Shown piece after piece: positions 14,500 to 41,952 of a DNA stretch of 64,000 nt. Below the pieces are notes generated by a model. The model did not search any database, was not told the origin of the DNA, and worked only from the letters and a program-made list of their open reading frames with translations. The DNA lies in NCBI RefSeq assembly GCF_003010965.1, contig NZ_PGGM01000003.1, positions 372,001-436,000 of the forward strand. Reading direction: 5' to 3'. Position numbers and translations under genes: made by a program. Numbering within the stretch: position 1 is the first letter of the stretch; each line of letters starts with the position of its first letter. Source of the stretch: Phyllobacterium sophorae (GTDB lineage: Bacteria; Pseudomonadota; Alphaproteobacteria; Rhizobiales; Rhizobiaceae).

Positions 14500-14522
14500 C
14501 TGTGTCCTGCAACCAGGAACGC
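14500..14522 (-). repeat. 23-bp cassette element, copy 1
   Basis: On the minus strand the sequence reads GCGTTCC, 7 bases, then AGGACACAG. This matches the consensus GCGTTCC-N7-GCGACACAG found at 18361, 26688, 37630 and 41662. The GTTCC part is the complement of the GGAAC ribosome site of the divergent LysR gene. The rest lies in the shared regulatory region, so it may also include an operator. Confidence 0.7.
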
Positions 14523-14524
14523 AA

Positions 14525-14580
14525 GTGGAAGGATCGAAGATTTGCAAAGGCTCGTTGAGATCGCGGATGCCGCGACTTAA
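14525..14580 (+). pseudogene. LysR start remnant (N-terminal stub)
   Basis: Starting at GTG 14525 behind AGGAACGCAA, the sequence can be read, after a small internal loss, as IEDLQRLVEIADA followed by a stop (TAA 14578). This corresponds to the N-terminus EIEDLRIFVEVADAGG of the LysR at 18357. It lies divergently from the hydrolase remnant at 14385, reproducing the arrangement of the intact pair. Confidence 0.6.
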
Positions 14581-14602
14581 CACCTAGTGATAAATACTAT
14601 TC

Positions 14603-14944
14603 TCACTTGGCTGGGTAAGGCTCGATGTCCGCCGACCAATAGCGTTTGGCAATGTTCTGGCTGTTCCGGATAACGTGGTAGGCGATATCCGGATCTCCTC
14701 CTTGAAGAGTGTCCGGATCCGCACCACACATCAAACAATACATTTGCTGATGAACGACGCTTGCAAAATATTGCAGAACCGGCGTGGCGTCCTCCTGGCC
14801 GATTGCTCGCAGGTCATCGGCAGCCTGTTTGACCGCACTTTCCAAAGCCAACGAAACGGTAGCCGCCAACATCCTGTCCGCACGGCTAATGACGTCGGCG
14901 ACTTCGCTTCCAGCCGACGTAAGGTCATGTCCATTATTTATCAT
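14603..14944 (-). CDS. Hypothetical protein, 113 residues
   Basis: Not recognised. The start ATG 14944 has a good ribosome site (GTGAGGTGAACA). The protein is mixed and soluble, without signal or membrane segments. Its first half is helical and Ala-rich (SRADRMLAATVSLALESAVKQAADDLRA); its second half is YCLMCGADPDTLQGGDPDIAYHVIR. It sits alone between two pseudogene regions, so it may be a survivor of the same rearrangements. Confidence 0.6.
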   Translation of the reverse strand: MINNGHDLTSAGSEVADVISRADRMLAATVSLALESAVKQAADDLRAIGQEDATPVLQYFASVVHQQMYCLMCGADPDTLQGGDPDIAYHVIRNSQNIAKRYWSADIEPYPAK

Positions 14945-15233
14945 TGTTCACCTCACGTATTGTTAGTGTACTTCAATTGCTGCCACAACGCCTACTCTGG
15001 CGGGTGCTGAGAATCGACAGATAGCTTTTGCCTTCCGCGTAAATTCGCGGACGTTAATGTGCCGAAAGATTGCCCGTTGCTGCTGTTCACTCCATCTTTG
15101 GGAACAGTCTTCTGACGTTCCCTTTCCTTCCGAGTGCTGCCGCGTTCCCTCGTCTTTCGCCTTCGGGGCGGCGACCCGAGATACCCCCCATCTTGCCGAC
15201 CAACCTTTCAACGTGGTTGGTATCGTTGCCGTC

Positions 15234-15545
15234 ATGGGTTGGGTAGTCCTGGTATTTGCAACATTCCGTCACCAAAGGCGGAACGCGCGCCGCCTGACTG
15301 CTCGCAATGGGAAACACCACGCCCTGCGACCGTCCGGTCCAACGCACCCGGACGGATAATCTGGTCAGCCCGAGTGCTGCAGCGGTAATGAAAGTCACCG
15401 CGATACAGACGTCTGACAGTACCAAGCCCGATAAATTGGTGGGTCGAACATCGATGCTGTGACCGGTCACCAACTCGGCCGGGCAGGCCTGATCGAAGAA
15501 GAACGGTTTCGCCATTTGCCGCTTCGGCGCCGGCAAAGCTGTCAG
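15234..15545 (-). pseudogene. Pirin-family remnant, frameshifted
   Basis: Two frames together resemble the intact pirin at 40217-41161. One frame gives PAPKRQMAKPFFFDQACPAE and then a degraded HSIDVRPTNLSGL. The next frame gives LYRGDFHYRCSTRADQIIRPG and GRGVSHCEQSGG, matching LYEGAFHHRDSTGADQMVYPG and GNGVTHSERTSE. Both metal-binding histidine regions are damaged, and the C-terminal half is gone. The 14945-15233 stretch upstream of the next gene on this strand shows no other coding signal. Confidence 0.75.
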
Positions 15546-15672
15546 TCGCGATCTTGTTCCCGGCGTCTATACATGCTAGCAGTGACGATATGGACAGACT
15601 TTTTGCCAACGCCACGATGATGATGCTGCGCTCCTAGCGTGGCGGATTTTGTGCGCTTTTTATGCACCTTAG

Positions 15673-15716
15673 ACCGCCCTTGAGGCGGTTTTTCATTGGT
15701 CGATCCGCCTTGAGGG
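15673..15716 (+). promoter_or_regulatory. Terminator hairpin with overlapping alternative helix in the metG leader
   Basis: A Rho-independent-type hairpin has stem ACCGCC (15673-15678), loop CTTGA, stem GGCGGT (15684-15689) and a T5 run (15689-15693). The segment CCCTTGAGGCGG (15677-15688) can instead pair along all 12 positions (two G-U) with CCGCCTTGAGGG (15705-15716). That pairing would break the terminator stem. It lies 27 bp before the MetRS start, an arrangement typical of attenuators. A small GTGC/GCAC hairpin (15651-15667) precedes it. The sensing mechanism is unknown. Confidence 0.5.
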
Positions 15717-15742
15717 ACAATCAACCTTCAGAAGGATAGCCA

Positions 15743-17308
15743 ATGAACAGCACGACGACTTACATCACTACCTCGATTCCATACGTCAATGCCGCACCGC
15801 ATGTTGGTTTTGCGCTCGAACTCGTGCAGGCCGATGCTTATGCTCGCCATTCCCGACTTCTCGGCAACGACGTCAGGTTTCAGTGCGGGACGGATGATAA
15901 TAGCCTGAAGAACGTCCGTGCAGCGGAGGCGGCGGGACGTCCCGTGGCCGACTTCGTCGGTGAAAATGCAGACCGCTTCGAAGAGCTTGGCAAGCGACTC
16001 CACATCTCAAACGATGCGTTCGTCCGCACATCCGCAGATTCAAGACATGCTGCCTGCGTTCATTCACTCTGGAACGCATGTGCGAAGAATGGCGACCTTT
16101 ATCGAAAGAGCTATGAGGGCTTTTATTGCGTGGGCTGTGAGCAGTTCTACGACCTAACGGATCTCGATGACGGCCGATGCCCGGAGCACGGTATCCCGCT
16201 TGAAGTCGTGAAGGAAGAAAACTGGTTCTTCCGCCTCTCCCGATATGGCAACCGTATCCTCCACCTGATCGAGACCGAGGAGCTTCAGGTCGTACCGGTT
16301 CACCGGCGAAACGAGATACTTGCCTTGCTCCGGCGCGGACTCGAGGACATCAGTGTGTCGCGCAGTGCGGAAAGGGCACGTGGCTGGGGAGTGCCCGTGC
16401 CCGGCAGCGACGAAGTTATCTATGTCTGGTTCGATGCCTTGGCGAACTACCTGACAGGGCTCGGCTATGGTTCCGACGAGGCGCTGTTCAGTCAATATTG
16501 GGCACGCCAAGGCGAGCGCACTCACTTCGTCGGAAAGGGGATATCCAAGTTCCATGCGATCTACTGGCCGGCGATACGCCTTTCCGCTGGCCTACCGCTG
16601 CCATCGTCGATCTACGTTCATGGCTACCTGACCGCCAACGGGCGGAAGATCGGGAAATCGGCCGGCAACGGCATCGATCCTGATGGCCTCGTGGAGTGCT
16701 ACCAGACTCCGGACGCATTGCGCTATTACCTGCTCCGCCATATCCGTTCGGCCGATGATGGGGATTTCTCCGAGGAACGGCTCGAGGCTGCGTGGTCGGG
16801 AGAACTCGGCGGGCAGCTTGGAAATCTCCTCAATCGGGTTCTCACATTACTGTCTTCGTCCTTCTCCGGTGTAACGCCAGCCGTTCCCAACAGTGTCCTT
16901 GTTCGCGAAGCAGCGCGCCTTCCCGAAAAGATCCTGGATGCCTTCGATAACTACGAACTTCACCTCGGCCTGACAGAAATCTTTTCCTATCTAGGGTCCG
17001 CGAACAGGGAGTTTACGCGGAAGGCGCCATGGTCTGATGCCAAGGCCTTGCTCGATGAACTCGATGAAACGGAACGAAAAATAATCTCCGATCGTCTTGG
17101 GGCAACTCTGGCGGAGCAGGTCTACGGCCTCGCCATCGTCGCTCGGTGTTTGCTCCCGTTTCTGCCTGAATCAGCTTCAAGGCTGCACGCGAAGCTGGGG
17201 ATATGGAGCCCGGCAAGGTATGACGCTCCACTCGTTGTTAGCGGAGTGGAGACATCTTCTGGAGGGATTCTCTTTCCGCGGCAGACGGTGGTGCGAACGA
17301 CGCCATGA
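15743..17308 (+). CDS. metG: Methionyl-tRNA synthetase (probable second, divergent copy)
   Basis: A 521-residue class I aminoacyl-tRNA synthetase. It has the HIGH-type signature as PYVNAAPHVGFA (HVGF, residues 20-23). A zinc-knuckle insertion carries YCVGCEQF and RCPEHG. The anticodon-region and KMSKS-type motif appears as GRKIGKSAGN (302-306). It ligates methionine to tRNA-Met. The departures from HIGH and KMSKS, and its place among accessory genes, suggest a second MetRS type rather than the housekeeping one; such copies can confer resistance to MetRS inhibitors, which is inference here. The start is ATG 15743 with AGAAGGATAGCC upstream, directly after the attenuator-like structure. Confidence 0.88.
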   Translation: MNSTTTYITTSIPYVNAAPHVGFALELVQADAYARHSRLLGNDVRFQCGTDDNSLKNVRAAEAAGRPVADFVGENADRFEELGKRLHISNDAFVRTSADSRHAACVHSLWNACAKNGDLYRKSYEGFYCVGCEQFYDLTDLDDGRCPEHGIPLEVVKEENWFFRLSRYGNRILHLIETEELQVVPVHRRNEILALLRRGLEDISVSRSAERARGWGVPVPGSDEVIYVWFDALANYLTGLGYGSDEALFSQYWARQGERTHFVGKGISKFHAIYWPAIRLSAGLPLPSSIYVHGYLTANGRKIGKSAGNGIDPDGLVECYQTPDALRYYLLRHIRSADDGDFSEERLEAAWSGELGGQLGNLLNRVLTLLSSSFSGVTPAVPNSVLVREAARLPEKILDAFDNYELHLGLTEIFSYLGSANREFTRKAPWSDAKALLDELDETERKIISDRLGATLAEQVYGLAIVARCLLPFLPESASRLHAKLGIWSPARYDAPLVVSGVETSSGGILFPRQTVVRTTP

Positions 17309-17448
17309 TTCAGCGCTGGTGTTTCCGGCAGGTGTCCGCGCCATGCGGGACCGCTATGGAATATCTTTGCCGGAGCGATTTCGTCGTCTTCGCTTCAGTC
17401 GGCTCTCACGCCCTCAGTGCAAGGAATGCTACTATCCTGCCCCGATCG

Positions 17449-18357
17449 TTAAAATAACTTGTCGGTATCCGACTTTCCCTCGCTAACGGACGGCGTTCCA
17501 AATCGTTCGATAAGCATCTCAGTGAGGGTTCGCACTTTTCGAGAGGGGTACTGGCCGGGCGGCCTCACCACGAAGATGCCGGCCGGCGGAATCGGATGAC
17601 GCGTCATGATTGGCACCAGCGCACCCGAACTAATATGATCCGCGACCAACGGCTCTGGCAGATAAGCGACCCCGACTCCGTCCAGAGCGGCCGCTACGAG
17701 AGACATTGCGTTATCGGCTATGAAGCGTCCCTGGGGCCGCACCGTGACGATCTCGTCGCCATCCATGAACTGCCACTTCTCTGCGTCCCGCATTACGACC
17801 TGATGCTTCACAATCTCGTCCGGTGTCTCGGGAGCACCGTGAGCCTCGATATAGGCAGGACTTGCAACCAGCTTGCCAAAGATCGGTCCGATACGTCTTG
17901 CGACGAGGTTCGAGTCCGACAGATGCCCCAGCCGGATTGCGCAATCAAAACCCTCTCCCACGAGATCAACGAAGCGATCAGTATAGGAAGAGAGGATTTG
18001 TAGCTGCGGGTGTTGGCTGGCCATCCGGGAGAGGACGGGAGCAAAACAGGTCGGACCAAATGACAATGGGGCGGCTACGCGCATTCGGCCTCGAAGCTTA
18101 CCGGCGGGCAGGATCGTTTCGCGGACCAGATCCAATTCAGCTGAGGTCCTGGCTGCGTAATCGCGGAACATGGCCCCTGCTTCCGTGAGCGCTATGCCAC
18201 GGGTCGTTCTTGCAAATAGCTGTGCGCCGAGTTGTTCTTCTAGCCTGGTGATCCGCCGGCTGACCATCGACTTGGAGATGCCCAGTCGCAGCGCTGCAGA
18301 TGATACTCCGCCCGCATCGGCAACTTCGACGAATATTCTTAGATCCTCAATTTCCAC
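17449..18357 (-). CDS. LysR-family regulator, paralogue A
   Basis: A 302-residue LysR protein of the CrgA/DmlR group. The start is assigned to GTG 18357 (reading EIEDLRIFVEVADAGGVSSA), behind AAGGAACGCTTT. The recognition region LRLGISKSMVSRRITRLEEQ is nearly the same in the LysR genes at 25718 and 28793. The effector domain includes GRMRVAAPLSFGPTCFAPVL and GFDCAIRLGHLSDSNLVARR. It is divergent from a hydrolase stub at about 18501, where the intact paralogue B faces an intact hydrolase. Confidence 0.9.
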   Translation of the reverse strand: MEIEDLRIFVEVADAGGVSSAALRLGISKSMVSRRITRLEEQLGAQLFARTTRGIALTEAGAMFRDYAARTSAELDLVRETILPAGKLRGRMRVAAPLSFGPTCFAPVLSRMASQHPQLQILSSYTDRFVDLVGEGFDCAIRLGHLSDSNLVARRIGPIFGKLVASPAYIEAHGAPETPDEIVKHQVVMRDAEKWQFMDGDEIVTVRPQGRFIADNAMSLVAAALDGVGVAYLPEPLVADHISSGALVPIMTRHPIPPAGIFVVRPPGQYPSRKVRTLTEMLIERFGTPSVSEGKSDTDKLF

Positions 18358-18360
18358 AAA

Positions 18361-18383
18361 GCGTTCCTTATTTTGCGACACGG
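18361..18383 (+). repeat. 23-bp cassette element, copy 2
   Basis: GCGTTCC (18361-18367), 7 bases, then GCGACACGG (18375-18383), directly upstream of the LysR A start. It differs from the consensus GCGTTCC-N7-GCGACACAG at one position. The 7-bp gap is kept exactly, although the gap bases differ between copies. Confidence 0.75.
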
Positions 18384-18500
18384 CTTCACACGACCGAAGA
18401 CTACCAAGGCAAAGAAGAGAATGACAACTTCGCTGCGGCTGACTCGCCCATGAGAGTATCCTCGCAACGTGCCTCACGAACATCAAATAGGATTTACTGC

Positions 18501-18545
18501 ATAATCTTTCGTAACGGCTTCACCTCGTTTCTCCGTCCATCGCAC
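18501..18545 (+). pseudogene. Isochorismatase-family hydrolase stub (first codons only)
   Basis: The sequence ATCTTTCGTAACGGCTTCAC (18504-18523) and the following bases code for IFRNGFTSFLRPS. This matches the start MTFRNGLDSLLRP of the hydrolase at 26832, with ATA (18501) in place of the start ATG. After about 13 codons the similarity ends and the porin leader begins. Distance from the 23-bp element to the start position (about 140 bp) equals that at the intact locus. Confidence 0.7.
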
Positions 18546-18634
18546 GCCGTACCAGTGGCAGACGGCGGCGATCACCCATGAAAAATTTAACACAGGATGT
18601 GGCCATGGGCCGAAGGCTGAAAGGCAAAGAGATG

Positions 18635-20107
18635 ATTGACCGACAGAAATACGCCGCCTCCTGTCTTTCAATAACGCTCGACCTCCGGTCCGAATCCAGA
18701 GCGCGGTTACTGCTGCTTTCGCTCGTCGCCTTCGCCTTCGCTCAATGGGACCACCGACCGGCATTGGCGGATGATTTTCGCTTTGAGCACGAGAGGCCTT
18801 CGATGAAAGCCGACCGGTCGCGGGAGGACTGGTCGCTTCTCGCAGATCCGAAACTGCGGACTCAGCCGCTGGACAGCCTTAAATACATTCCGTTGTTTTC
18901 TTCCAATCCCGACAGCTACATCTCGCTCGGGCTCAATCTGCGCGAAATCTTCGAAGTCAGTGATACGCCAGCTTTCGGAACCGTACGTGCGAATCCCGGA
19001 GACTCCTACTGGTTACAGCGCGCGCAGTTCCATATCGACGCCCACCTGAATGAAAACTGGCAAGTGTTCACGCAGTTCGAGGATGTGCGTGCGTTCGACA
19101 AGACGGTGGTCGGCCCGAACGACGCAAACCGGTTTGACCTTCGGCAAGCATTCATCGGCTATACGCAAGAGACCGACAGCGGAACGTTCAGGGCAAGGGT
19201 CGGCCGTCAAGACTTTGCGTTTGACCTTGAGCGGTTCGTTTCGACGCGCGATGGGCCGAATGTCCGCCAGTCATTCGATGCTGTCTGGGCCGGGTGGGAG
19301 ACGGATGCATGGCGCTTTTATGGTCTTGTCAGCCGGCCCGTCCAGTATCGCGATGACCGCCCTTTCGATGATCGATCGAGCGGCGATGCAATGTTCAGCG
19401 GGGCTCGCGTGGAGCGGCAGCTGTCGCCGGATATCGAGGCCTCTGCCTATTACGCGCTTTATCAGCGCAAGGACGCCACTTTTCTCACCACGTCGGGTGA
19501 GGAGGACAGGCATATCCTCAATATCCGGACAGCCGGCAAATATGCCGGTTTCGACTGGGATGCGGAAGCGATGGGACAGGTTGGCAAGGTCGGTTCGACC
19601 GACATTCTGGCTTGGGCCGTTGGTGCGAGGACCGGCTACACCTTCGAGAATGCCAGCTGGTCGCCGCGGATCGGTCTGCAGTTCGACGTGGCGTCGGGCG
19701 ACCGGGACGCAAGTGATGGCACGCTTGGCACTTTCAATCCGCTGTTTCCAAACGGCTTTTATTTCTCGCTAGGCGGCCATACCGGATACGCCAACCTCGT
19801 TCACATCAAACCATCGGTCACCGTTCAGCCGATAGAAGACCTGACCCTGATGGCCGGGGTCGGACTGCTCTGGCGACAGACGACACAGGACGCCGTCTAC
19901 ACCCTGCCAAGCATTCCCGTGGCTGGCACGGCGGGTCAGGGGTCGGCATGGACCGGAGCCTATTTGCAGGTCAGGGTGGACTACCGCTTCAATCCCAATC
20001 TCACGGGGTCGCTGGAGGCCGTCCATTATCAGGTCGGCTCGGCGCTTCGCGAAGCCGGAGGCACTGACAGCAACTATGTTCGAGCGGAATTGAAATACTC
20101 ATGGTAG
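18635..20107 (+). CDS. Alginate-export-type outer membrane porin
   Basis: A beta-barrel outer membrane protein of the alginate export/porin-like family. It has a signal-like stretch RARLLLLSLVAFAFA followed by a likely cut near ALA-DDF. Alternating aromatic strands follow (YWLQRAQFHIDAHLNENWQVFTQF read in parts) and the C-terminus is AELKYSW. Family members, about 450-500 residues, mediate passage of anionic solutes or polymers. The start is uncertain: ATG 18635 (MIDRQKYA, GAAAGGCAAAGAG upstream) gives 490 residues, while ATG 18578 would add 19. It follows the hydrolase stub, so it may have inherited that regulatory region. Confidence 0.82.
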   Translation: MDRQKYAASCLSITLDLRSESRARLLLLSLVAFAFAQWDHRPALADDFRFEHERPSMKADRSREDWSLLADPKLRTQPLDSLKYIPLFSSNPDSYISLGLNLREIFEVSDTPAFGTVRANPGDSYWLQRAQFHIDAHLNENWQVFTQFEDVRAFDKTVVGPNDANRFDLRQAFIGYTQETDSGTFRARVGRQDFAFDLERFVSTRDGPNVRQSFDAVWAGWETDAWRFYGLVSRPVQYRDDRPFDDRSSGDAMFSGARVERQLSPDIEASAYYALYQRKDATFLTTSGEEDRHILNIRTAGKYAGFDWDAEAMGQVGKVGSTDILAWAVGARTGYTFENASWSPRIGLQFDVASGDRDASDGTLGTFNPLFPNGFYFSLGGHTGYANLVHIKPSVTVQPIEDLTLMAGVGLLWRQTTQDAVYTLPSIPVAGTAGQGSAWTGAYLQVRVDYRFNPNLTGSLEAVHYQVGSALREAGGTDSNYVRAELKYSW

Positions 20108-20254
20108 CGAATGCACAGCCCTACGCACCAACGCCGCCTTTCGCCGTGCCGGACATTCAGGGGCGATGGATCGGTCGTCTGATATGCAAGACGCGGTGCT
20201 GTACGATGAGGAAAGCCGGGTAGGATTCTTGGGCCGATATCGCAGCACCCATTC

Positions 20255-20671: not shown

Positions 20672-20887
20672 GTGATTTCCTGAGTTTTATTTTTCTCGCT
20701 TCAGATCCGATTCGAACCACCGTTATTATGGTTGCGGCAGTAAGTGCCCTGCCGGAAAGGACCGCCTTCATTAGAATTTCATGGCGTGGAGGTTAGTCCT
20801 GCATGGGCGAGCAGCATAGTCTCTCCAAATGCGAAACGTTGTTGCAAAACGTCGAACGGCAAGCCCATCAAGGATGTCATGGCCCAT

Positions 20888-21310
20888 TCTGGGAAGCACT
20901 CCCAATCGGGCGCCGCGGCCCTTCCGGGCGTCGGCGTCATGGGCATGTTGCGCTTCGCCCGCTTCACAGGCGGACAGTTCTGGATCGGGGACTATGGCGA
21001 TCCAGGGAAGGAAGCCGACTTCCGCAATTTCCTGTCCTATTCGCCCTATCACACGATCCGCTCGGGCACGCCCTATCCGGCGATCCTGGTCACGACGGCT
21101 GATACCGACGACCGCGCCGTGCCGGTCCACAGCTTCAAATATGTCGCGGCGCTCCAAGCCGCAAAGCTCGGCGATAAGCCGCGGATCCTGCGGGTCGACA
21201 AGCGGACCCGCCATGGCGCCGGGAAGCCCACCGGCAAGGCGATCGACGAGATCGCCGACCCTTGGGCGTTCGCCGCGCATTGGACCGGCCTCCACTCTAC
21301 GACGGCGGTG
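20888..21310 (+). pseudogene. Prolyl oligopeptidase (S9) C-terminal remnant
   Basis: The frame contains AAALPGVGVMGMLRF, YSPYHTIRSGTPYPAILV, TTADTDDRAVPVHSFKY and RTRHGAGKPT. These correspond to the C-terminal catalytic region of prolyl oligopeptidases, including the Asp (DTDD) and His (RHGAGK) of the triad. The N-terminal propeller and the Ser-bearing GGSNGG segment are missing. The frame runs out into unrelated sequence after AAHWTGL. The fragment is about 130 residues of a usual 680-720. Confidence 0.8.
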
Positions 21311-21424
21311 ACCGCTTGGCGGAGCAACCCCTCATCGTCAGCGCGGCAGTGCTGGGCTAGGAGATCCACGATCATCCGCGGGTGGAGCGACGGTTAGCCC
21401 CGGCATACAGAAGATTGAGCGCAG

Positions 21425-22165
21425 TCATGCTATCGCGCCCCCATCGGCGGTGAGGATGGCGCCCGTAATCAGGCTCGCGGCAGGACTTGCAAGAAAGACC
21501 ACAAGGTTCGCGATTTCGCGTGGCTCGCCGAAACGCCCCAGCGACGTGAGGCCCCGCTGGAAGTCAGCGGCCGCACCGTCCGCCGGATTTGCGTCGGTAT
21601 CCACCGATCCGGGCTGCACTAGGTTTACGGTAATGCCGTTCGGACCAAGTTCGCGCGACAGCCCGCGGGTGAAAGAGGTGAGTGCTGCCTTGGACATCGC
21701 ATAAGCCGTTACGCCCGGGAAGGGAACCCGCTCGCCGAGACCCGATCCGATAGAGATGATGCGCCCGCCAGCGGAAAGATGCGGAATGACAGCCTTCGCG
21801 AACAGCACCGGCGCTCGCACGTTGACGTCCATCAATGTTTGATACTCAGCCACATCAAGGTCGGCGATCGTTCCGGAGTGGCCAATTGCCGCGCTGTTGA
21901 CGAGGATATCGAGACCGCCAAGCGCCGTGATGGCATCGCTGGCTGCGCGCGTGATCGCCTCAGGATCGGCACTGTCGGCTTGAATAGCAACCACGCGACG
22001 CCCCGTACTCTCGATGGATTTGGCCACCGTGTCAGCTTTTTCAGCCGAGCGCTGGTACGTAATCGCCACGTCAGCGCCGTTCTCGGCCAATGCCAATGCG
22101 ATCGCGGCACCGATGCCCCGCGACCCTCCGGTTACCAATGCACGTTTCCCGTTCAGATTAATCAT
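21425..22165 (-). CDS. SDR-family oxidoreductase (FabG-like)
   Basis: A 246-residue short-chain dehydrogenase: cofactor loop VTGGSRGIGAAIA, NAD(P) loop ILVNSAAIG (variant of NNAG), catalytic Ser in IISIGSGLG, Tyr-Lys in AYAMSKAAL, and the usual C-terminal TADGGAIA. It resembles 3-oxoacyl-ACP reductase-type proteins. The start is ATG 22165 behind GAAAAGGAAGAACAA; a longer frame upstream lacks support. Substrate unknown. Confidence 0.9.
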   Translation of the reverse strand: MINLNGKRALVTGGSRGIGAAIALALAENGADVAITYQRSAEKADTVAKSIESTGRRVVAIQADSADPEAITRAASDAITALGGLDILVNSAAIGHSGTIADLDVAEYQTLMDVNVRAPVLFAKAVIPHLSAGGRIISIGSGLGERVPFPGVTAYAMSKAALTSFTRGLSRELGPNGITVNLVQPGSVDTDANPADGAAADFQRGLTSLGRFGEPREIANLVVFLASPAASLITGAILTADGGAIA

Positions 22166-22334
22166 TTGTTCTTCCTTTTCTAGGTAGTCGACCCAAGCCC
22201 AAGTGGTTTGCACAAGATGCGACAGGCGCTCGACCGCCTGTCTCGCCAACTTAATGTTCTCCAGTAACGACTCTTAGTATCGAGAAGTGCTGAACTGTGT
22301 TGCAAAGTGCGGAACGTCGGGCGAAGCCGTAGCG

Positions 22335-25717: not shown

Positions 25718-26605
25718 CTAATTTTCACGATCTGTCGAAAAGTCTTCAAAACACTCGACTAGCATCTCGGTGAGCACCCGTATCTTGCGTGCGGGATGCT
25801 GCCCTGGCGGCCGGACGACATAGATGCCCAATTTGGGGGGCGGATAGCGCGTCATCACCGGGACCAGCGCGCCGGAAGCCAGATGCTCCCCAATCAATTC
25901 TTCAGGGACACCGGCCAGACCAATTCCGGCAAGTGCTGCAGCTACAAGAGCTACAGCATTGTCGGCTTTGAAGCGCCCCTGCGGTTTCAGCGTGATGATC
26001 TTGTCCCCATCCATCGCCAGCCAGGTTTCAGTACCCTGCATGACGACCTCGTGCGTAACGAATTCCTCCGGCGTCTCGGGCGATCCGTGTTTTTTGATGT
26101 AGTCCGGTGTCGCGACGTACTTGGCGGTGGTCCATCCGACTCGCCTTGCGAGCATGTTGGAGTCGGCAAGATGGCCGACACGTATCGCACAGTCGAACCC
26201 TTCTGCGATAAGGTCGACGAACCGATCCGTGTAGCTGGCTTGAACCTGCAACTCCGGATGGCGCTGCGCTAGAGATGCGAGCACAGGGGCGAAGTGCGTC
26301 GGACCGAATGTAAGCGGAGCTGCTATTCTTAGTCGACCGCGAAGGTCGCCGGCGGGCAATATCGTCTCCTTGGCAATGTCGATCTCGGCGCAGACTTTTG
26401 CGGCGTGTTCCCGGAAGGTGATCCCGGCCTCTGTGAGGGCGGCGCCGCGTGTCGTGCGGGCGAGCAACTGCACGCCCAAATCCTTTTCAAGCCGAATGAG
26501 GCGCCGGCTGACCATCGACTTGGAGATACCGAGCCGCCGCGCGGCTGGAGAAACCCCGCCAGTATCGGCCACTTCCACGAAGGTCCGCAGGTCTTCGATG
26601 TCCAA
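25718..26605 (-). CDS. LysR-family regulator, paralogue B
   Basis: A 295-residue LysR closely related to those at 17449 and 28793: DIEDLRTFVEVADTGGVSPA, RRLGISKSMVSRRLIRLE, RLRIAAPLTFGPTHFAPVL and FDCAIRVGHLADSNMLARR. No in-frame ATG fits. The start is placed at TTG 26605 with AGGAACG upstream, homologous to the GTG and ATG starts of the paralogues. It is divergent from the intact hydrolase at 26832, its probable target. Confidence 0.9.
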   Translation of the reverse strand: MDIEDLRTFVEVADTGGVSPAARRLGISKSMVSRRLIRLEKDLGVQLLARTTRGAALTEAGITFREHAAKVCAEIDIAKETILPAGDLRGRLRIAAPLTFGPTHFAPVLASLAQRHPELQVQASYTDRFVDLIAEGFDCAIRVGHLADSNMLARRVGWTTAKYVATPDYIKKHGSPETPEEFVTHEVVMQGTETWLAMDGDKIITLKPQGRFKADNAVALVAAALAGIGLAGVPEELIGEHLASGALVPVMTRYPPPKLGIYVVRPPGQHPARKIRVLTEMLVECFEDFSTDREN

Positions 26606-26609
26606 ATCA

Positions 26610-26710
26610 ACGTTCCTGTATTCACGACAGATGAGTGCTCGAATCGCTCCGATCGTATCACAAATAGAAAGAACAGGGCCGGCATTGGCGTTCCACGTTT
26701 CGCGACACAG
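26610..26710 (+). promoter_or_regulatory. LysR B/hydrolase regulatory region with two 23-bp elements
   Basis: The 226-bp divergent region holds a full match, GCGTTCC-N7-GCGACACAG, at 26688-26710. A weaker one, ACGTTCC-N7-ACGACAGAT, lies at 26610-26632 next to the LysR start. The 26688 copy lies about 140 bp before the hydrolase start, as in the other cassettes. This is the reference locus for the dispersed cassette because both flanking genes are intact. Confidence 0.7.
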
Positions 26711-26831
26711 CTTCACGGGATCGGGCGCTACCGCATCACAAATGAAAATGACACTGTCCATCAAGGCGCCCTCGGAGGCAGTGCGCGCCTGCCGACTTCC
26801 CCACGCCTCAACAACAGCAAAGGATGCTTCC

Positions 26832-27485
26832 ATGACCTTTCGTAACGGCCTTGATTCGCTTCTCCGCCCCGAAGATTCCGTTCTCGTTCTGATCGATCAC
26901 CAGCCCTATCAGCTCGCAAATCTCAACAGCCACGACCCGCAAGCTGTGGTCAACAGCACGACCGCGCTGGCGAAGCTGGCAAAAGCCTTCGATGTCCCGA
27001 CCATTCTGACCAGCGTGATCGCGGGGCGCGGCGGACTTCTCTTCAAGCAGATCACCGACGTATTTCCGGACCAGGAAGTCATCGATCGCACCTGGGTGAA
27101 CACCTGGCAGGACGAGAATGTGGTGAACGTCGTCAAGGCGACTGGCCGCAAGCAGCTGATCATCGCCGGCCTGTGGACGGAGGTCTGCGTCGCAATGCCT
27201 GTCATCCAGGCCGCCGGCGAAGGCTGGGACGTGACCGTGATCACCGACGCGTCGGGCGGGATTTCAAAGGAGTCTCACGAAGTTGCCGTCCAGCGCATGA
27301 TTGCGGCCGGTGCGAACCCGATGACCGTGATGGCGCTCGCTGGCGAATGGCAACGCGATTGGGCGCGCACCGGGCATGTCGAGCAGCTGACCGAGATACT
27401 CATCCAGCACTTCGCCGGCAGCGGCATCGCCTACCTCTGGGAGCAGCAGCTTCTCAATACACCGGTGTCGGGCAAAACCGCCTGA
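26832..27485 (+). CDS. Isochorismatase-family cysteine hydrolase (YcaC-like)
   Basis: A 217-residue isochorismatase-fold hydrolase: Asp22 in SVLVLIDHQPYQL, and the catalytic Cys119 in IIAGLWTEVCVAMPV, the LWTEVC form seen in YcaC-like proteins. GWDVTVITDASGG follows. Such enzymes hydrolyse amides or related bonds; the natural substrate here is unknown. The start ATG 26832 has AAAGGATGCTTCC upstream; the longer frame upstream is the antisense of LysR B. It is the only intact copy of a gene whose 5' stubs occur at four other places. Confidence 0.92.
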   Translation: MTFRNGLDSLLRPEDSVLVLIDHQPYQLANLNSHDPQAVVNSTTALAKLAKAFDVPTILTSVIAGRGGLLFKQITDVFPDQEVIDRTWVNTWQDENVVNVVKATGRKQLIIAGLWTEVCVAMPVIQAAGEGWDVTVITDASGGISKESHEVAVQRMIAAGANPMTVMALAGEWQRDWARTGHVEQLTEILIQHFAGSGIAYLWEQQLLNTPVSGKTA

Positions 27486-27723: not shown

Positions 27724-28761
27724 ATGGAAATTGGTGTCGACAGTTTTGCCGCGATCCTTTCTGATCCGACGACAGGAAAGCTCCCTTCGGCGGCCGACCG
27801 CATGGCCGATCTTCTTGAGGAAGTGGAGGTCGCCGACAGGGTCGGGCTCGACGTATTCGGCATCGGCGAGCATCATCGCGCCGAATTCCTCGATTCCGCA
27901 CCGGCGATCATACTTGCCGCAGCAGCGGCGCGCACCCGCCAGATTCGATTGACCAGCGCGGTAACGGTATTGAGCGCCGCCGATCCTGTAAGACTCTTCC
28001 AGGAGTTCGCGACCCTCGACCTGATTTCCAGAGGGCGCACCGAGCTCGTCGTCGGCCGTGGTTCGTTCGGCGAGGCCTTTCCACTCTTCGGCCTGGACAC
28101 ACGGGCATATGACGAACTCTTCGCCGAGAAGCTCGACCTGTTCCTGAAGCTTGGCGAGACATGCAATCCCGTATGGGAGGGCCAATTCCGCCCCGCGTTG
28201 GACGGTCAGGGGGTCTTTCCGAGGCCCCACCAATCGCGACTGCCTCTATGGATCGGCGTCGGCGGCACGCCGCAGTCCTTCGCGCGTGCCGGCGCGCTCG
28301 GCCTTCCGCTGATGGTGGCGATCATTGGTGGAACATTTGAACGGTTTCGCCCGCTCGTCGATCTCTATCGCGAGGCCGGCATACGCGCGGGGCACAGTCC
28401 CGAGAAGCTTAAGGTGGGCATTCATGCGATGGGCTTCGTCGGCGAGACCGACGCGGCAGCAAGGGATGCCTTCTTCCCGGGCTGGGCACATCTGACGACC
28501 AAGGTCGGACGCGAGCGTGGCTGGCCGCCCCCGACACGTCAGCAGTTCGAAGACATGGCGGGGCCCCAAGGCGCCTTCCTGATCGGCGCCCCGGCGACGG
28601 TTGTCGAGAAGACGATTAAGGCCCGCCAGGCGCTGGGCGGTCTATCGCGCATCACCTTTCAGATGAGCACCGCCTCTCTGGAAACGGTGGCAATGAAACG
28701 CTCGATCGAGCTTCTCGGCACCGAGGTCGCGCCAATTGTGAGGGCTGCGGGAAAGATCTGA
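27724..28761 (+). CDS. LLM-class flavin-dependent oxidoreductase (luciferase-like)
   Basis: A 345-residue bacterial-luciferase-like protein: GLDVFGIGEHHRAEFLDSAP, IRLTSAVTVLSAADPVRLFQ, LVVGRGSFGEAFPLFG and LPLWIGVGGTPQSFARA. Members use reduced FMN to oxidise diverse organic compounds. The start ATG 27724 follows GAAGGAGCCTTC. It may share transcription with the upstream hydrolase, though a 238-bp gap (27486-27723) without a recognised gene separates them. Confidence 0.9.
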   Translation: MEIGVDSFAAILSDPTTGKLPSAADRMADLLEEVEVADRVGLDVFGIGEHHRAEFLDSAPAIILAAAAARTRQIRLTSAVTVLSAADPVRLFQEFATLDLISRGRTELVVGRGSFGEAFPLFGLDTRAYDELFAEKLDLFLKLGETCNPVWEGQFRPALDGQGVFPRPHQSRLPLWIGVGGTPQSFARAGALGLPLMVAIIGGTFERFRPLVDLYREAGIRAGHSPEKLKVGIHAMGFVGETDAAARDAFFPGWAHLTTKVGRERGWPPPTRQQFEDMAGPQGAFLIGAPATVVEKTIKARQALGGLSRITFQMSTASLETVAMKRSIELLGTEVAPIVRAAGKI

Positions 28762-28792: not shown

Positions 28793-29683
28793 ATGGATAT
28801 CGAGGATCTGCGGACATTTGTCGAAGTTGCCGATGCCTGCGGCGTTTCTCCCGCGGCCCGTCGGCTCGGGATATCGAAGTCAATGGTCAGTCGCCGCCTT
28901 ATCCGGCTCGAGGGAGCCTTGGGTATCCAGCTTCTTGCACGAACGACCCGTGGTGCCGCGCTGACGGAGGCCGGGGTTGCATTTCGGGAACATGCGGCAA
29001 AGGTTTGCGCCGAAATCGATGCGGCGAAAGACGAGATATTGCCGGCCGGTGACCTTCGCGGGCGCTTGCGGGTCGCCGTGCCACTGACATCGGGGCCGAT
29101 GCATTTTGCGCCCGTGCTTTCTCGGATGGCATGGCTTCATCCAAAGCTGCAAATACAGGCCGACTACAGTGATCGCTTCGTAGATTTGATCGCAGAGGGA
29201 TTTGACTGTGCGATCCGGGTCGGCGCACTGCGTGATTCGAACCTGATCGCGAGGCGAGTTGGTCAGATCTATGGGCAGCTGGTCGCAAGTCCAGACTATA
29301 TCAAGATGCATGGCTCACCGGAAACACCGGATGAGATCAGCTCTCACCAAGCTTTGGTGGGGGCTGAAACGTGGCGGTTCGTGGATGGAGACAAAATCGT
29401 CACCGTGCAGCCACAAGGACGATTCAAAACCGAGAACGGCATGGCACTTGCCAATGCAGCTGCGGCCGGGCTTGGCCTTGCATGGCTTCCCGACTGTGTC
29501 ACCCAACATTATCTTGCCTCCGGCGCGCTCGTACCGGTCATGACCGGATATCCGCTGCCGGTCGGCAATGTCCACGTTGTGCGCCCACCAAGTCCGCATC
29601 CGGCGCAAAAGGTGCGCATCCTTTCCGAGTTGCTGATCGAATCGTTCGAGCGAAATGCGCCTGTTTGGAGTTCAGGGACATGA
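28793..29683 (+). CDS. LysR-family regulator, paralogue C
   Basis: A 296-residue LysR: DIEDLRTFVEVADACGVSPA with GISKSMVSRRLIRLEGALG and effector domain RLRVAVPLTSGPMHFAPVL, GFDCAIRVGALRDSNLIARR. It is the third member of the A/B/C set and has an ATG start (28793) with GGGGTGACCAT upstream. Unlike A and B it is not divergent from a hydrolase stub; it lies just downstream of the LLM enzyme on the same strand. Its target is unknown. Confidence 0.9.
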   Translation: MDIEDLRTFVEVADACGVSPAARRLGISKSMVSRRLIRLEGALGIQLLARTTRGAALTEAGVAFREHAAKVCAEIDAAKDEILPAGDLRGRLRVAVPLTSGPMHFAPVLSRMAWLHPKLQIQADYSDRFVDLIAEGFDCAIRVGALRDSNLIARRVGQIYGQLVASPDYIKMHGSPETPDEISSHQALVGAETWRFVDGDKIVTVQPQGRFKTENGMALANAAAAGLGLAWLPDCVTQHYLASGALVPVMTGYPLPVGNVHVVRPPSPHPAQKVRILSELLIESFERNAPVWSSGT

Positions 29684-37006: not shown

Positions 37007-37198
37007 TAGCGCGCCGCGACGGCTGAGAACTGCAACCGGGCTGCTCAGTGAACCCTTTTCGAACTCGGACAATGTTGCCGCAATGTTGGCCTGCTTTTTG
37101 AGGCCATGGGCCGTGATGACGGGCTTGCGGGGCACCGCTCCGCCTGCTCGTGTCGCCGAAGAAACGTCCAACGCTCATTTCTCAAGGAGATCAACAGA

Positions 37199-37531: not shown

Positions 37532-37629
37532 GACCAAACCTCGGCAGTGTCAGCGATGCGCCATCATCGCGTGCCGAGACTCAATAACCGCGCTCGCTGC
37601 CAATACCTGCTGACGAATGCATAGTGCAG

Positions 37630-37800
37630 CGTTCCGGTTTCAGCGACACAGCTCTTCATAAAAAAGGGCTACAGAAACTCGCGCAGAAACAATAAAAATC
37701 ATGCCACCACGGCAGCAAAGGATCTGACGATGACTGCTTGTAACGGCTCTGGTCTGCCGTACTCGTCGACATCGGTCAGTCTTATCTGTCCGCAGATGTC
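37630..37800 (+). pseudogene. Cassette copy: 23-bp element and degraded hydrolase start
   Basis: This 369-bp gap (37532-37900) holds GCGTTCC-N7-GCGACACAG at 37630-37652. Further on, CAGCAAAGGATCTGACGATG (37713-37732) matches the ribosome site and start of the intact hydrolase (CAGCAAAGGATGCTTCCATG, 26815-26834). TTGTAACGGC and a CTCGT-GACATCGGTCAGTC-like region follow, resembling VLVLIDHQPY with a gap. The distance from element to ATG is shorter (78 bp). Beyond 37800 no similarity is seen. The following gene is the exported hydrolase at 37901. Confidence 0.6.
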
Positions 37801-37900
37801 CACTAAACGAGAGCCGGACCGCCTCCGACGCCAGGCTTCGTCCGCGCTTCGGATTCTCCGTCCGGGAATTCACAAAAACAGATATGAGTAGGAAGTGATC

Positions 37901-38668
37901 ATGCTCAAGCTTGCTGCAACGGTTGCTATTGCGACCGCCCTTCTGTCCGGTGCCGCTATCGCTCAACCGGTCAAGCCCACTATCGTCCTCGTTCATGGTG
38001 CGTTTGCTGACTCGTCGAGCTGGAATGGCGTCATCATCAACCTCCAAAAGGACGGCTATAAGACGGCCGCTGTCGCCAATCCGTTGCGGAGTGTCTCAAA
38101 TGATGCACGTCTCGTCTCCGACGTCGTCGGAAGCATCGAGGGCCCAGTGGTGCTCGTTGGTCATTCTTACGGAGGCCAGATTATCTCTAACGCTGCGAAT
38201 GGGCACGACAACGTCAAGTCACTCGTCTATGTGGCTGCCTTCGCACCGGATTCTGGCGAATCTGCATCCGATCTGGCGGGCAAGTTCCCCGGCGGCACGC
38301 TTGGGGAGGCGCTTGCAGCCCCCGTTAAGCTCACTGACGGCGGCGTTGATCTCTATATCGACCAGACCAAGTTCCGCGACCAGTTCGCGCACGACGTTCC
38401 GCCAGAGGCCTCGGCACTAATGGCTGTCGGCCAGCGGCCAATCACTGAAGCGGCCCTGACGGACAAGTCCGGCGAACCGGCCTGGAAAACGCTGCCGTCC
38501 TACTTCGTCTATGGCGACAGCGACAAAAACATCCCGGCCAAGGCACTTGACTTCATGGCAGAGCGTGCAGGCTCCAAGCGGACGGTCGTGGTCGAGGGGG
38601 CATCGCATGTCGTGATGGTCTCGCATCCGAAGGTTGTGACAGATCTGATCGAAGAGGCTGCGAAATAA
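37901..38668 (+). CDS. Exported alpha/beta hydrolase
   Basis: A 255-residue hydrolase with a signal peptide (MLKLAATVAIATALLSGAAI, cut near AQP). Features are the oxyanion motif IVLVHGAFADSSSW, nucleophile elbow VLVGHSYGGQI, late Asp in VYGDSDKNIP and His in VEGASHVVMVSHP. The group resembles small secreted esterases of unknown substrate. The start ATG 37901 has TAGGAAGTGATC upstream. It lies directly after a degraded cassette copy. Confidence 0.88.
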   Translation: MLKLAATVAIATALLSGAAIAQPVKPTIVLVHGAFADSSSWNGVIINLQKDGYKTAAVANPLRSVSNDARLVSDVVGSIEGPVVLVGHSYGGQIISNAANGHDNVKSLVYVAAFAPDSGESASDLAGKFPGGTLGEALAAPVKLTDGGVDLYIDQTKFRDQFAHDVPPEASALMAVGQRPITEAALTDKSGEPAWKTLPSYFVYGDSDKNIPAKALDFMAERAGSKRTVVVEGASHVVMVSHPKVVTDLIEEAAK

Positions 38669-38775
38669 TCCTGCTTTCGGCCGATATCCGACCACCGTTG
38701 CGCGTGTTTCCACCCGCGGCACGATACGCAACCAGGTCCAAAATCTGATCGAATACTGAATCGGGGAGTGTCACA

Positions 38776-39741: not shown

Positions 39742-39757
39742 GGAAAAGTCTCGGGAC

Positions 39758-40156
39758 TTAATTGCTCTCCGGTATGCGTGCGATCACCTTGATCTCGAAA
39801 TCGAACCCGGCCAGCCAGTTTACTCCGACGGCAGTCCAGTTGGGATAAGGCGGCTTGGTGAAAATCCTCTGCCTGACTTCCATGATCGTTGCGAACTGGC
39901 TCTCCGGGTCCGTGTGGAACGTCGTGACATCCACGAGATCGTCGAACGTGCAGCCTGCGGCATCGAGTGCAGCCTTCAGGTTGTCGAAGGCCAGTTGAAC
40001 CTGGCGTTCGAAATCAGGTTCGGGTGTTCCATCGCCACGGCTGCCGACTTGCCCCGAAACGAAAAGAAGATCGCCTGATTGGATCGCTGCCGAGTAGCGA
40101 TGTTCTTCGTAAAGAGCATGCCTATTCACAGGAAAGATGGCTTGGGGTTTTGTCAC
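39758..40156 (-). CDS. RidA-family protein
   Basis: A 132-residue RidA/YjgF protein: VNRHALYEEHRYSAAIQSGDLLFVSGQVG, AFDNLKAALDAAGCTFDDLVDVTTF, and the conserved PPYPNWTAVGVNWLAG. RidA proteins hydrolyse reactive imines or enamines; this one has a Trp-rich variant of the usual PxRxxV segment, so activity is uncertain. The start is GTG 40156 behind GAGAACGAGAA, giving family length. Confidence 0.88.
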   Translation of the reverse strand: MTKPQAIFPVNRHALYEEHRYSAAIQSGDLLFVSGQVGSRGDGTPEPDFERQVQLAFDNLKAALDAAGCTFDDLVDVTTFHTDPESQFATIMEVRQRIFTKPPYPNWTAVGVNWLAGFDFEIKVIARIPESN

Positions 40157-40216
40157 TTCTCGTTCTCTCTTAATTGTTGTCGATGGGTATGTTAGCCAAT
40201 CTGGTATCACATTCGA

Positions 40217-41161
40217 TCACTTCAGCTGTTCGGGCAGCGGGATGAACTCGGCCTCGTCGCCGGGCGGTAGACGAAAGCGACCATGCTCCCAGTCACCCTT
40301 GCGCCAGGCCTCTTTCGCGGCATCGATCTTCTCCTGCGACGAGGCGACGAAGTTCCACGAAATATAGCGCGGTCCATTCATTGTCTCGCCGCCGAGCACC
40401 ATAAGGCGCGCGCCTGCCTCACCTGCTGTCAGGCTGATCCGATCGCCGGGACGGAACACCATCATCTGGCCAGCAGCAAACGGAGTTCCGGCGACCAGGA
40501 TGCTGCCCTCGACGACATAGACGCCGCGATCTTCGTGATCGTCGGGCAGCGGCAGCTTTGCGTCGGCGGACAGAATGACATCGGCATAGAAGGTCTCAGT
40601 GAAGGTCTTGACCGGGGCCCGCGCGCCCCAGGCCGAGCCGATGATCAGCCGGACCTGCTTGCCTTCATCCTCGATGAACGGCAGCGCCTCGCGACCGTGA
40701 TGTTCGAAACTGGCCGCAGTGTCTTCTGCGTGATTTGGCAGCGCGACCCAGGTCTGGATTCCAAAAGCGGTGCGGGGACGGCTGCGCATCTCCTCGCTGG
40801 TGCGTTCGGAATGAGTGACGCCATTACCGGCGATCATCCAGTTCACCTCACCGGGGTAGACCATTTGGTCGGCGCCGGTGCTGTCGCGATGGTGAAATGC
40901 GCCCTCATAAAGATAGGTCACGGTCGCCAGCCCGATATGCGGATGCGGACGTACGTCGATGCCACCGCCAGTCAGGAACTCCGCCGGTCCCACCTGATCG
41001 AAGAAGATGAAGGGGCCAACCATCTGCCGTTTCGGGGCGGGTAATGCACGGCGCACTTCGAACCCACCGAGATCGCGGGTGCGCGGAATAATGAGGGTCT
41101 CGATTGCGTCGAGGCTGCCAGTTTCGGGGCATTCAGGGTTCTGCGTGGGGTTCCAGCTCAT
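40217..41161 (-). CDS. Pirin-family protein
   Basis: A 314-residue pirin. The N-terminal cupin has metal-site residues in DVRPHPHIGLATVTYLYEG (two His) and MIAGNGVTHSERTSEE (His, Glu). FIFFDQVGPAE precedes them and the C-terminal cupin ends LNGPRYISWNFVAS-like (NGPRYISWNF). Pirins include quercetinase-like enzymes and redox regulators. The start ATG 41161 has GAAGGAACTTGAC upstream. A frameshifted relative lies at 15.2-15.5 kb. Confidence 0.92.
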   Translation of the reverse strand: MSWNPTQNPECPETGSLDAIETLIIPRTRDLGGFEVRRALPAPKRQMVGPFIFFDQVGPAEFLTGGGIDVRPHPHIGLATVTYLYEGAFHHRDSTGADQMVYPGEVNWMIAGNGVTHSERTSEEMRSRPRTAFGIQTWVALPNHAEDTAASFEHHGREALPFIEDEGKQVRLIIGSAWGARAPVKTFTETFYADVILSADAKLPLPDDHEDRGVYVVEGSILVAGTPFAAGQMMVFRPGDRISLTAGEAGARLMVLGGETMNGPRYISWNFVASSQEKIDAAKEAWRKGDWEHGRFRLPPGDEAEFIPLPEQLK

Positions 41162-41185
41162 GTCAAGTTCCTTCGCTCAAACTGG

Positions 41186-41437
41186 TCATAGAGGCCGCCG
41201 CAGGTGGCGGACGATTGGCGGTTGGTCACCGATATTGAAGGCATCCAGCAGTCCCCGATCCAGCGCGCGTGTGTTTGTGACAGGTGCGTGCCCGTACTGG
41301 TGCTCGATCCAGCGATCGACGACAAAGCCTCCCAGGACCCGGCCAGGATCGGCCACGTCATCCCAGACGTCCCAGCGGATTGCAGCGTCGCGCTGATTGG
41401 AAGCGCCACAGGCCGGCGGCGAAGTCGGTGACCACAT
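41186..41437 (-). pseudogene. MFS transporter C-terminal remnant
   Basis: This frame includes RWDVWDDVADPGRVLGGFVV, DRWIEHQYGHAPVTNTRALD and a short QPPIVRHLRRP end. It resembles the soluble C-terminal tail found on some enterobactin-exporter-like MFS proteins (W-x-x-x-D...R...F, W-x-E-H, R-H). All membrane helices are missing. It follows directly on the hydrolase 5' stub at 41438-41541, so the two broken genes are joined. Confidence 0.5.
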
Positions 41438-41541
41438 CTTTTGGCAGGCATCAACCCAAGCTGGCAGCGCTGGTGATCGATCAGAATGACCACCGGGTCC
41501 TCGGAGCGAAGAAGCGAGCTAAAGCCACTATGAAAGGTCAT
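41438..41541 (-). pseudogene. Isochorismatase-family hydrolase stub (5' end)
   Basis: From ATG 41541 the frame reads MTFHSGFSSLLRSEDPVVIL, then IDHQRCQLG. It matches the intact MTFRNGLDSLLRPEDSVLVL, IDHQPYQLA over about 29 residues and then diverges. The upstream CAACAAAAGATGTTTTC corresponds to the ribosome-site region of the intact gene, and the 23-bp element lies at 41662-41684. The catalytic Cys region is absent. Confidence 0.75.
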
Positions 41542-41952
41542 GAAAACATCTTTTGTTGCCGATGAGGTTAGTTTGATTGGTAGGCACAAACCGCCTACGA
41601 CAGTGCTTGAAAGGACACTGCCATTTATATTTATGGTGCGGTAGCGCCCGTTCAGGCGAAACTGTGTCGCGCTTAGGGGAACGGCAAGTTCCGCAAGTCG
41701 ATCTTGGGAGCATTCGACGTACACCCTCGATTTTGGCGGAGTTACTTTCTCGCCTCGATTGTTCATCGATTAGGCGTGAAAATGCCGTCGGCGGTTCGGC
41801 GATCCTTACAAAGACGGCAATGGGGTGGAAACCAGTAAGGCTTCTTTTGGGAAGGGGAGCACCGAAAGCTTCCATCGGCGAGAGTCGTTTTCCCCCGAGA
41901 AGCGATGGAGTTCTGGTATCGGCCCTATCGAGCGTCTTCTTGGCAGTCGCGG
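41542..41952. repeat. Cassette regulatory region with 23-bp element, copy 5
   Basis: No credible gene occupies this 411-bp stretch. On the minus strand it carries CCGTTCC, 7 bases, GCGACACAG (41662-41684), one base from the consensus. Next to it GATCTTGGGAGCATTCG (41700-41716) is a possible trace of a LysR start (GAGGATCTAAGAATATTCG in paralogue A). The rest to 41952 shows nothing I could assign. Confidence 0.55.

Follow-up and report, generated by a model that had tools for sequence, protein, structure and literature searches.

Why should one and the same short element stand in front of several unrelated genes? This question is raised by a stretch of 64,000 nucleotides from Phyllobacterium sophorae (contig NZ_PGGM01000003.1, positions 372,001 to 436,000; the whole stretch is hereafter called the window), in which the element GCGTTCC-N7-GCGACACAG recurs beside genes of LysR-type regulators and isochorismatase-family hydrolases, but also before a porin and an exported alpha/beta hydrolase. 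Judging from its conservation in other genomes, the element is very probably the operator, i.e. the predicted binding site, of one widespread LysR-type subfamily. Its members here are LysR1, LysR2 and LysR3, with a fourth on C44 of the same genome. We consider it highly likely that the region between 14 and 42 kb is a local regulon of these regulators, probably for detoxification, in which some of the hydrolase genes were replaced or lost and the operator was kept.

Copies of the element in the window

Both strands of the window were searched allowing up to three mismatches. The operator sites, with the scores of the weight matrix described below, are as follows (G308 is a congener).

14500-14522, minus strand: operator copy with two core changes; 2 mismatches, 24.1 bits
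18361-18383, plus strand: operator between the LysR2 and porin genes; 1 mismatch, 35.0 bits; 30 of 30 bases the same in G308
22295-22317, minus strand: operator upstream of the SDR gene; 2 mismatches, 26.4 bits; 30 of 30 bases the same in G308
26610-26632, plus strand: second, weak copy at 4 bp from the start of lysR1; -1.6 bits; part of a tandem promoter duplication with a 78-bp period (by eye)
26688-26710, plus strand: operator of the LysR1/isochorismatase pair; 0 mismatches, 37.6 bits; its end lies 121 bp from the isochorismatase ATG
37629-37651, plus strand: operator upstream of the exported alpha/beta hydrolase gene; 0 mismatches, 29.6 bits; core identical in G308
41662-41684, minus strand: operator upstream of an isochorismatase relic and a pirin gene; 1 mismatch, 23.1 bits; core identical in G308, where the site scores 32.3 bits

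Seven matches were found in total, against a mean of 1.11 in shuffled sequence, and none of 100 shuffles reached seven (largest 4). The seventh match, at 16353-16375 (minus strand), has three mismatches, lies inside a metG-like gene and scores -6.9 bits; it was rejected as an operator and is taken as a chance occurrence. The methionyl-tRNA synthetase-like gene itself occupies 15743-17308; a plasmid of Rhizobium sp. CCGE531 carries a match to it under the annotation metG.

The weight matrix was built from 75 distinct sites of other genomes, the window excluded. It picks exactly six sites of at least 23 bits in the window, the next best (at 20830) reaching 12.2 bits, and no site of at least 12 bits was found by it in 2 Mb of simulated sequence. 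That weak match (20830-20859, minus strand) is located at an S9-peptidase-like open reading frame (20744-21397); its G308 counterpart scores 12.7 bits with different letters. The five copies given in the preliminary description are all present, the one at 37.6 kb starting at 37629 rather than 37630. The weaker sixth copy proposed at 26610 is indeed weak and forms part of a tandem duplicate, and the true sixth strong copy is the one at 22295-22317, which had been overlooked. The strands of the copies and the presence of three LysR paralogues had not been mentioned either.

The 6.35-Mb genome of the strain contains four perfect copies of the core GTTCC-N7-GCGACACAG: three in the window (26688, 37629 and 41662) and one at C44:15861. 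The last is a second intact LysR/isochorismatase pair, whose hydrolase is 96% and whose LysR is 71% identical to those of the window.

Similarity between the copies extends beyond the element, as had been proposed. Measured from the first base of the element, the start of the hydrolase gene or its remnant is approximately 137-144 bp away for four of the copies and 101 bp away for the one at 37.6 kb, in agreement with the preliminary description (130-145 bp for four copies, shorter at 37.7 kb). The 41.6- and 14.3-kb regions align to the intact unit by blastn (E 2e-28 and 6e-23, respectively). The similarity of the 18.4-kb flank is weak by DNA (E 0.03) and clear in a multiple alignment, and that of the 37.7-kb flank is seen in the multiple alignment alone.

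Conservation of the element with LysR in other genomes

An alignment of seven such LysR proteins was used to find relatives in 84,980 species genomes, and the best 80 of 570 were analysed. Within 320 bp around the lysR start, the core is exact in 60 of the 80 loci and has one mismatch in 14, so that 74 carry it with at most one mismatch. As many as 65 of these 74 sites have offsets of -24 to -28, which leaves 3-7 bp to the start codon, and the other nine have offsets of -73 to -106. Control stretches 1.5 kb downstream of the lysR start gave a very different picture: 1 of 79 had zero mismatches and 78 had three or more.

A divergent isochorismatase-family gene is present within 300 bp in 68 of the 80 relatives, with at least 70% identity in 65. 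At three Pseudomonas loci the divergent gene is only 38-40% identical, which indicates that there the operator accompanies LysR rather than this particular hydrolase. The site thus lies between lysR and a divergently read target and is kept with lysR across genomes, as a LysR operator would be. The regulators themselves are of the expected type: LysR1 and LysR2 have an N-terminal HTH_1 and a LysR substrate-binding domain, LysR2 is 67% identical to LysR1, and LysR3 is assigned by its 69% identity. The first 60 residues, including the helix-turn-helix, are strongly conserved among the 80 proteins, and one operator for all of them fits with this.

The hosts include Rhizobium, Bradyrhizobium, Sphingomonas, Variovorax, Bordetella, Paraburkholderia, Pseudomonas, Dyella and Pseudoxanthomonas, which we take to represent the Alpha-, Beta- and Gammaproteobacteria. 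The association of the element with LysR/isochorismatase pairs therefore stands, relatives included, and all indirect tests point to a regulatory element. Of the two refuting conditions set in the preliminary description (flanks without similarity beyond chance; absence of the element near such pairs in relatives), neither was borne out. A local invention of the element was rejected, as the LysR subfamily is spread over several proteobacterial classes.

The specificity of the element was observed genome-wide as well. A stricter pattern found 19 exact sites in 16 of 151 genomes of the family (own genome included), and the reversed pattern found none. Twelve of the 19 are placed at lysR or between lysR and isochorismatase, five between lysR and pirin, one between isochorismatase and pirin, and one is the 37.6-kb site of the window; one order seen repeatedly is hydrolase, operator, lysR, operator, pirin. 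Within the genus, 20 genomes (again with the own one) gave 32 pattern matches versus five for the control. Four Pseudomonas genomes had one exact site each, the reversed control giving one match in one of them.

Anatomy of the predicted operator

The consensus of the 75 foreign sites is GC-GTTCC-N7-GCGACACAG-C, and a near-invariant C stands six bases past the core; CTACCGCA begins 38 bases from the opening G of GTTCC, and GGAATGGCA is found at 55-63. Positions 0-4 and 12-20 are 86-99% one base. The fixed 7-bp gap with varying bases, noticed at first in the window, proved to be general in these sites. The gap is looser than the core, though not free, with T in 87% of sites at its fourth base and in 82% at its fifth. 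In our reading, the base frequencies also contain an invariant T-N13-A and an imperfect GTTCC-N9-GACAC dyad. From the operator to the hydrolase ATG the median distance is 125 bp in 68 intact pairs of relatives. A sigma-70 scan of 26500-26900 found no promoter, and the CTACCG box is promoter-like by position only.

Doubled arrangements such as that of 26610 and 26688 were also seen in three relatives (L068, L070, L071), and G308 has a single strong operator at the lysR1 start. In six others (L081, L102, L120, L121, L124, L133) the best operator lies 73-74 bp from lysR, with a weaker copy seemingly beside the start.

In the mechanism that we propose, the LysR protein would bind GTTCC-N7-GCGACACAG, which in relatives sits a few bp ahead of the lysR start codon and some 125 bp ahead of the divergent gene for the YcaC-like hydrolase, with the CTACCG box following the operator at a fixed distance. 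A single site might thus serve both autoregulation of lysR and control of the divergent gene, with activation of the targets expected. The same operator before the pirin, SDR, porin and alpha/beta-hydrolase units would make a local regulon of the 14-42 kb region, whose role is probably the detoxification of electrophilic or quinone-like aromatic compounds. Some of these units would descend from LysR/isochorismatase modules in which the hydrolase gene was replaced or lost and the operator retained. If so, the subfamily has a sharp, testable operator, and the regulon could be listed directly in any genome.

Apparent targets and comparison with known systems

The 80 loci (826,606 bp) contain 31 further sites of at least 15 bits, and the downstream open reading frames of 20 of them, chosen by hand, were scanned. 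Pirin was found six times, isochorismatase three times, and SDR, Flavodoxin_2 (flavodoxin-like reductase) and an Na/H-exchanger with TrkA_N (KefC-like) twice each; an amidohydrolase, an enoyl-CoA hydratase, an aspartyl protease and a weak alpha/beta hydrolase occurred once each, and one frame belonged to no family. Rhizobium sp. CCGE531 carries the operator before a pirin gene, a hydrolase/LysR pair, a zinc-binding alcohol dehydrogenase gene and a gene annotated as ethanolamine utilization protein. Hence the presence of the element before other genes (pirin, SDR, flavodoxin-like reductase, antiporter), first seen as a re-use, is ordinary in relatives. The apparent targets, namely reductases, pirin, SDR and KefC-like proteins, suggest that the regulon protects against electrophiles or quinones.

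Among the papers listed in literature searches that cover few subscription journals, none describes this operator. A text search for the letters GCGACACAG gave unrelated titles among the matches listed, and no paper matched queries on LysR with isochorismatase and pirin, or on LysR divergent from isochorismatase in Sinorhizobium. Several known systems are nevertheless similar. BexR (PA2432) of P. aeruginosa is a positively autoregulated LysR protein with bistable expression that strongly activates the operon PA1202-PA1205, coding for a predicted hydrolase, a redox protein, an NADPH-dependent FMN reductase and a pirin (PMC2796861), a content very like the target list given above. By gene numbers, however, bexR lies away from this operon, and the accessible parts of that paper give no binding motif. 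In E. coli, the LysR protein YhaJ controls the divergent pirin-like gene yhaK and the pirin gene yhhW via a common promoter motif (PMC5031710). The divergent neighbour, the pirin targets, the shared motif and the link to quinol-like compounds all resemble the present case, but the YhaJ motif is T-N11-A with TCA-N7-TGA, unlike GTTCC-N7-GCGACACAG, and the accessible passages mention no hydrolase partner.

The YcaN/YcaC system of E. coli involves the same hydrolase family: the LysR gene ycaN is clustered with ycaC, and the ycaC transcript is lower in a ycaN mutant (PMC9068703). The passages available from that source contain no YcaN operator motif, and the hydrolase of the window reaches 159.1 bits versus a cut-off of 310 for the YcaC equivalog NF041461, i.e. 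it is a relative and not an equivalog. YcaC 1yac and 4wgf are its best solved matches.

For LysR1, the best solved match is 3mz1 (2e-37), followed by CrgA 3hhg (E 1.8e-34). The mdaB gene encodes a quinone reductase. CrgA of Neisseria meningitidis, thus the second-best solved relative of LysR1, binds the crgA/mdaB promoter, but the box reported for it is T-N11-A (cited in PMC6422896, as far as the available part of that source goes).

History of the loci

The genes and gene remnants associated with the sites are listed below.

12933-14099, minus strand: DUF900 alpha/beta hydrolase (PF05990 E 1.1e-57), downstream of the 14.5-kb operator copy
14184-14385, minus strand: 5' relic of an isochorismatase gene, split over two reading frames (77% and 53% identity in two tblastn pieces)
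14476-14568, plus strand: possible LysR N-terminus stub, weak (tblastn 45% over 31 residues, E 0.025)
17449-18357, minus strand: LysR2; predicted GTG start 3 bp from the operator
18501-18537, plus strand: isochorismatase 5' remnant of about 12 codons, start codon lost; break point common to amidohydrolase-carrying relatives
18578-20107, plus strand: alginate-export-type porin (PF13372 E 1.4e-127)
21425-22249, minus strand: SDR oxidoreductase, start perhaps ATG 22165
25718-26605, minus strand: LysR1 (Pfam HTH_1 and LysR_substrate); TTG start at 26605 predicted by alignment with relatives
26832-27485, plus strand: intact isochorismatase-family (YcaC-like) hydrolase (PF00857 E 6.6e-24; YcaC 1yac E 6.8e-36)
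27724-28761, plus strand: LLM-class flavin monooxygenase (TIGR03858 above cut-off), without a strong operator of its own
28793-29683, plus strand: LysR3, a paralogue of LysR1, without a strong operator of its own
37730-37753, plus strand: short isochorismatase 5' remnant (multiple alignment; 5 of 16 conserved columns differ; moderate support)
37895-38668, plus strand: exported alpha/beta hydrolase (PF12697 E 1.1e-23)
40217-41161, minus strand: pirin (PF02678, PF05726)
41455-41541, minus strand: isochorismatase 5' relic of 29 codons (62% identity, E 5e-7)

An ATG at 26833 was rejected as the start of LysR1, as the alignment with relatives favours TTG 26605. A pirin fragment at 15271-15502 (minus strand; tblastn 47%) is 74% identical in DNA to 40947-41007 over 15442-15502; it is probably a decayed second pirin gene, and G308 has a longer fragment.

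According to the preliminary description, the regulatory region had been copied and re-used before other genes. The element does stand before several other genes, but at the porin the relatives document another course of events. At the LysR2 locus, the isochorismatase gene of congener L202 is intact and stands between a weak operator beside LysR2 and the porin gene. Four relatives (R. ruizarguesonis L066, R. gallicum L203, Pseudochelatococcus L071 and congener L208) have LysR2, the operator, a hydrolase stub of about 12 codons, an amidohydrolase gene and the porin gene; of these four, the 3' end of the hydrolase after the amidohydrolase was seen in L066 only. In the window and in G308, LysR2, the operator and the same stub are followed directly by the porin. 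These states indicate that the promoter was not copied to the porin, but that the gene behind it was replaced in place. The break CGYCC/ATCGCRCG is common to the window, G308, L066, L071, L208 and L203, so that, most simply, the amidohydrolase gene would have come once and later been lost in the window.

A broader, and rather doubtful, suggestion is that the LysR operator with the first codons of its target forms a stable docking point, behind which hydrolase, amidohydrolase and porin were exchanged in turn. If true, the regulator family would recruit unrelated detoxification genes not through the evolution of new operators but through replacement of the gene behind a fixed one. The locus itself is a traceable case in which regulator and operator stay and the regulated gene is exchanged.

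An active duplication of the promoter with the isochorismatase 5' end, and its placement before other genes, is possible at some of the other loci, although we regard it as unlikely as a general explanation. The remnant of the hydrolase 5' end points toward the pirin gene at 41.6 kb and toward the alpha/beta hydrolase gene at 37.6 kb, in neither case with a LysR gene adjacent, and copying or rearrangement may have taken place there. The pirin genes of relatives are preceded at 76-137 bp by an operator of their own, in several cases just behind lysR, which makes the arrangement of the window a rearranged one. In Shinella, the orthologue of the 37.9-kb hydrolase lies near an isochorismatase gene, and a strong operator is found only at the LysR/isochorismatase pair. 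On the other hand, besides the replacement in place documented at 18.4 kb, the region at 14.2-15.5 kb, with its operator, hydrolase relic, weak LysR stub and pirin fragment, looks like a whole module that has decayed. Moreover, G308 has the same arrangements, and no earlier state for those at 37.6 and 41.6 kb was found in relatives, including plasmid DNA searches (Shinella, Hartmannibacter, Phyllobacterium and S. meliloti neighbourhoods). A DNA search of 297 family genomes (four congeners) with the 37.6- and 18.4-kb regions hit nothing but the own genome, apart from one congener for 18.4 kb.

A site resembling the operator (21.3 bits) together with an isochorismatase 5' relic was seen at L149 (5990-6218) on plasmid HDIAp1 of Hartmannibacter diazotrophicus, where no gene is annotated. 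The relic resembles the one at 41.6 kb and adjoins conjugation (trb) genes, so such a relic exists on a conjugative plasmid too.

Selection on the sites

Between 12.8 and 44.6 kb, the window and G308 are collinear, the aligned pieces being 86-97% identical, with gaps at approximately 20.7-21.0, 25.6-25.7, 26.6-26.8, 41.3-41.4 and 41.7-41.9 kb; each of the six sites has a strong counterpart in G308. Five sites were compared, 26688 being left out as its intergenic region does not align. Differences amounted to 0/70 in the 14-base core, 0/30 in the CTA box, 5/35 in the spacer and 157/1558 in the flanks (Fisher 0.0013). The core against the spacer gave p 0.003, and the core with the CTA box against the gene-side flanks (63/797) gave 0.0007. 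Together with the column counts within the window given below, this comparison supports selection on the set of sites, argues weakly for it on the three relic sites alone, and does not support it for the 14.5-kb copy.

It might be objected that the relic-associated sites (14.5, 37.6 and 41.6 kb) are fossils of decayed LysR/isochorismatase modules whose operators are inactive. Their broken frames, the two core changes at 14.5 kb and an operator preservation not significantly above that of coding sequence within the window speak for this. The unchanged core of the five sites, next to flanks that differ by 10%, speaks against it, as do, weakly, the three relic sites taken alone (0/42 core changes). 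Furthermore, the G308 counterpart of the 41.6-kb unit has lost the hydrolase start codon, yet retains its strong operator. We view inactivity of these sites as rather unlikely, though conceivable.

Several observations weigh against a conserved, functional operator of the whole subfamily. Six of the 80 relatives lack a good site (two have two, three have three and one has five mismatches), and their helix-turn-helix is much like that of the rest. The 80 loci include near duplicates (L101/L103) and are the best of 570. The invariant T-N11-A box usual for LysR sites was not found in the base frequencies of the 75 sites. Two relatives, L202 (11.5 bits) and R. gallicum L203 (16.3 bits), have a weak operator at the LysR2 locus. 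The LLM, KefC-like and LysR3 genes of the window have no strong site. The flank rate used above takes in a stretch at 41.7 kb that aligns badly (62 gaps). Within the window, the four relics have 7/84 operator/promoter versus 28/163 coding columns changed (p 0.08, not significant), and the three relics found by hydrolase homology have 6/63 versus 23/147 (p 0.28, not significant). At 14.5 kb the operator is even worse preserved than the coding part (3/21 vs 5/61).

Improbable origin from a mobile or repetitive element

That the element is part of a transposon end or of a repeat resembling a miniature inverted-repeat transposable element is highly improbable: several copies do lie in both orientations within 27 kb, but the position relative to lysR starts is fixed in distant hosts, which contradicts such an origin, single genomes contain few sites (1-2 in those of the family that are positive, 16 in number, and 1 in each of the four Pseudomonas genomes), and the repeats of the window go back to homology of promoters with 5' coding ends or to gene paralogy, or are unrelated. 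LysR1 relatives of 93-96% identity do occur, among the best 80 of 570, in Phyllobacterium, Neorhizobium, Pseudochelatococcus and a Rhizobiales isolate, which suggests that the module moves between lineages. The initial statement that this is not a known mobile element agrees with our data, as the repeats show no mobile feature and no transposase was found among the scanned window proteins (part of the open reading frames). No tRNA genes were found in the window. Outside the element copies, a 165-bp direct repeat (3659-3823 and 44589-44753) is 82% identical between its two units, which lie 41 kb apart.

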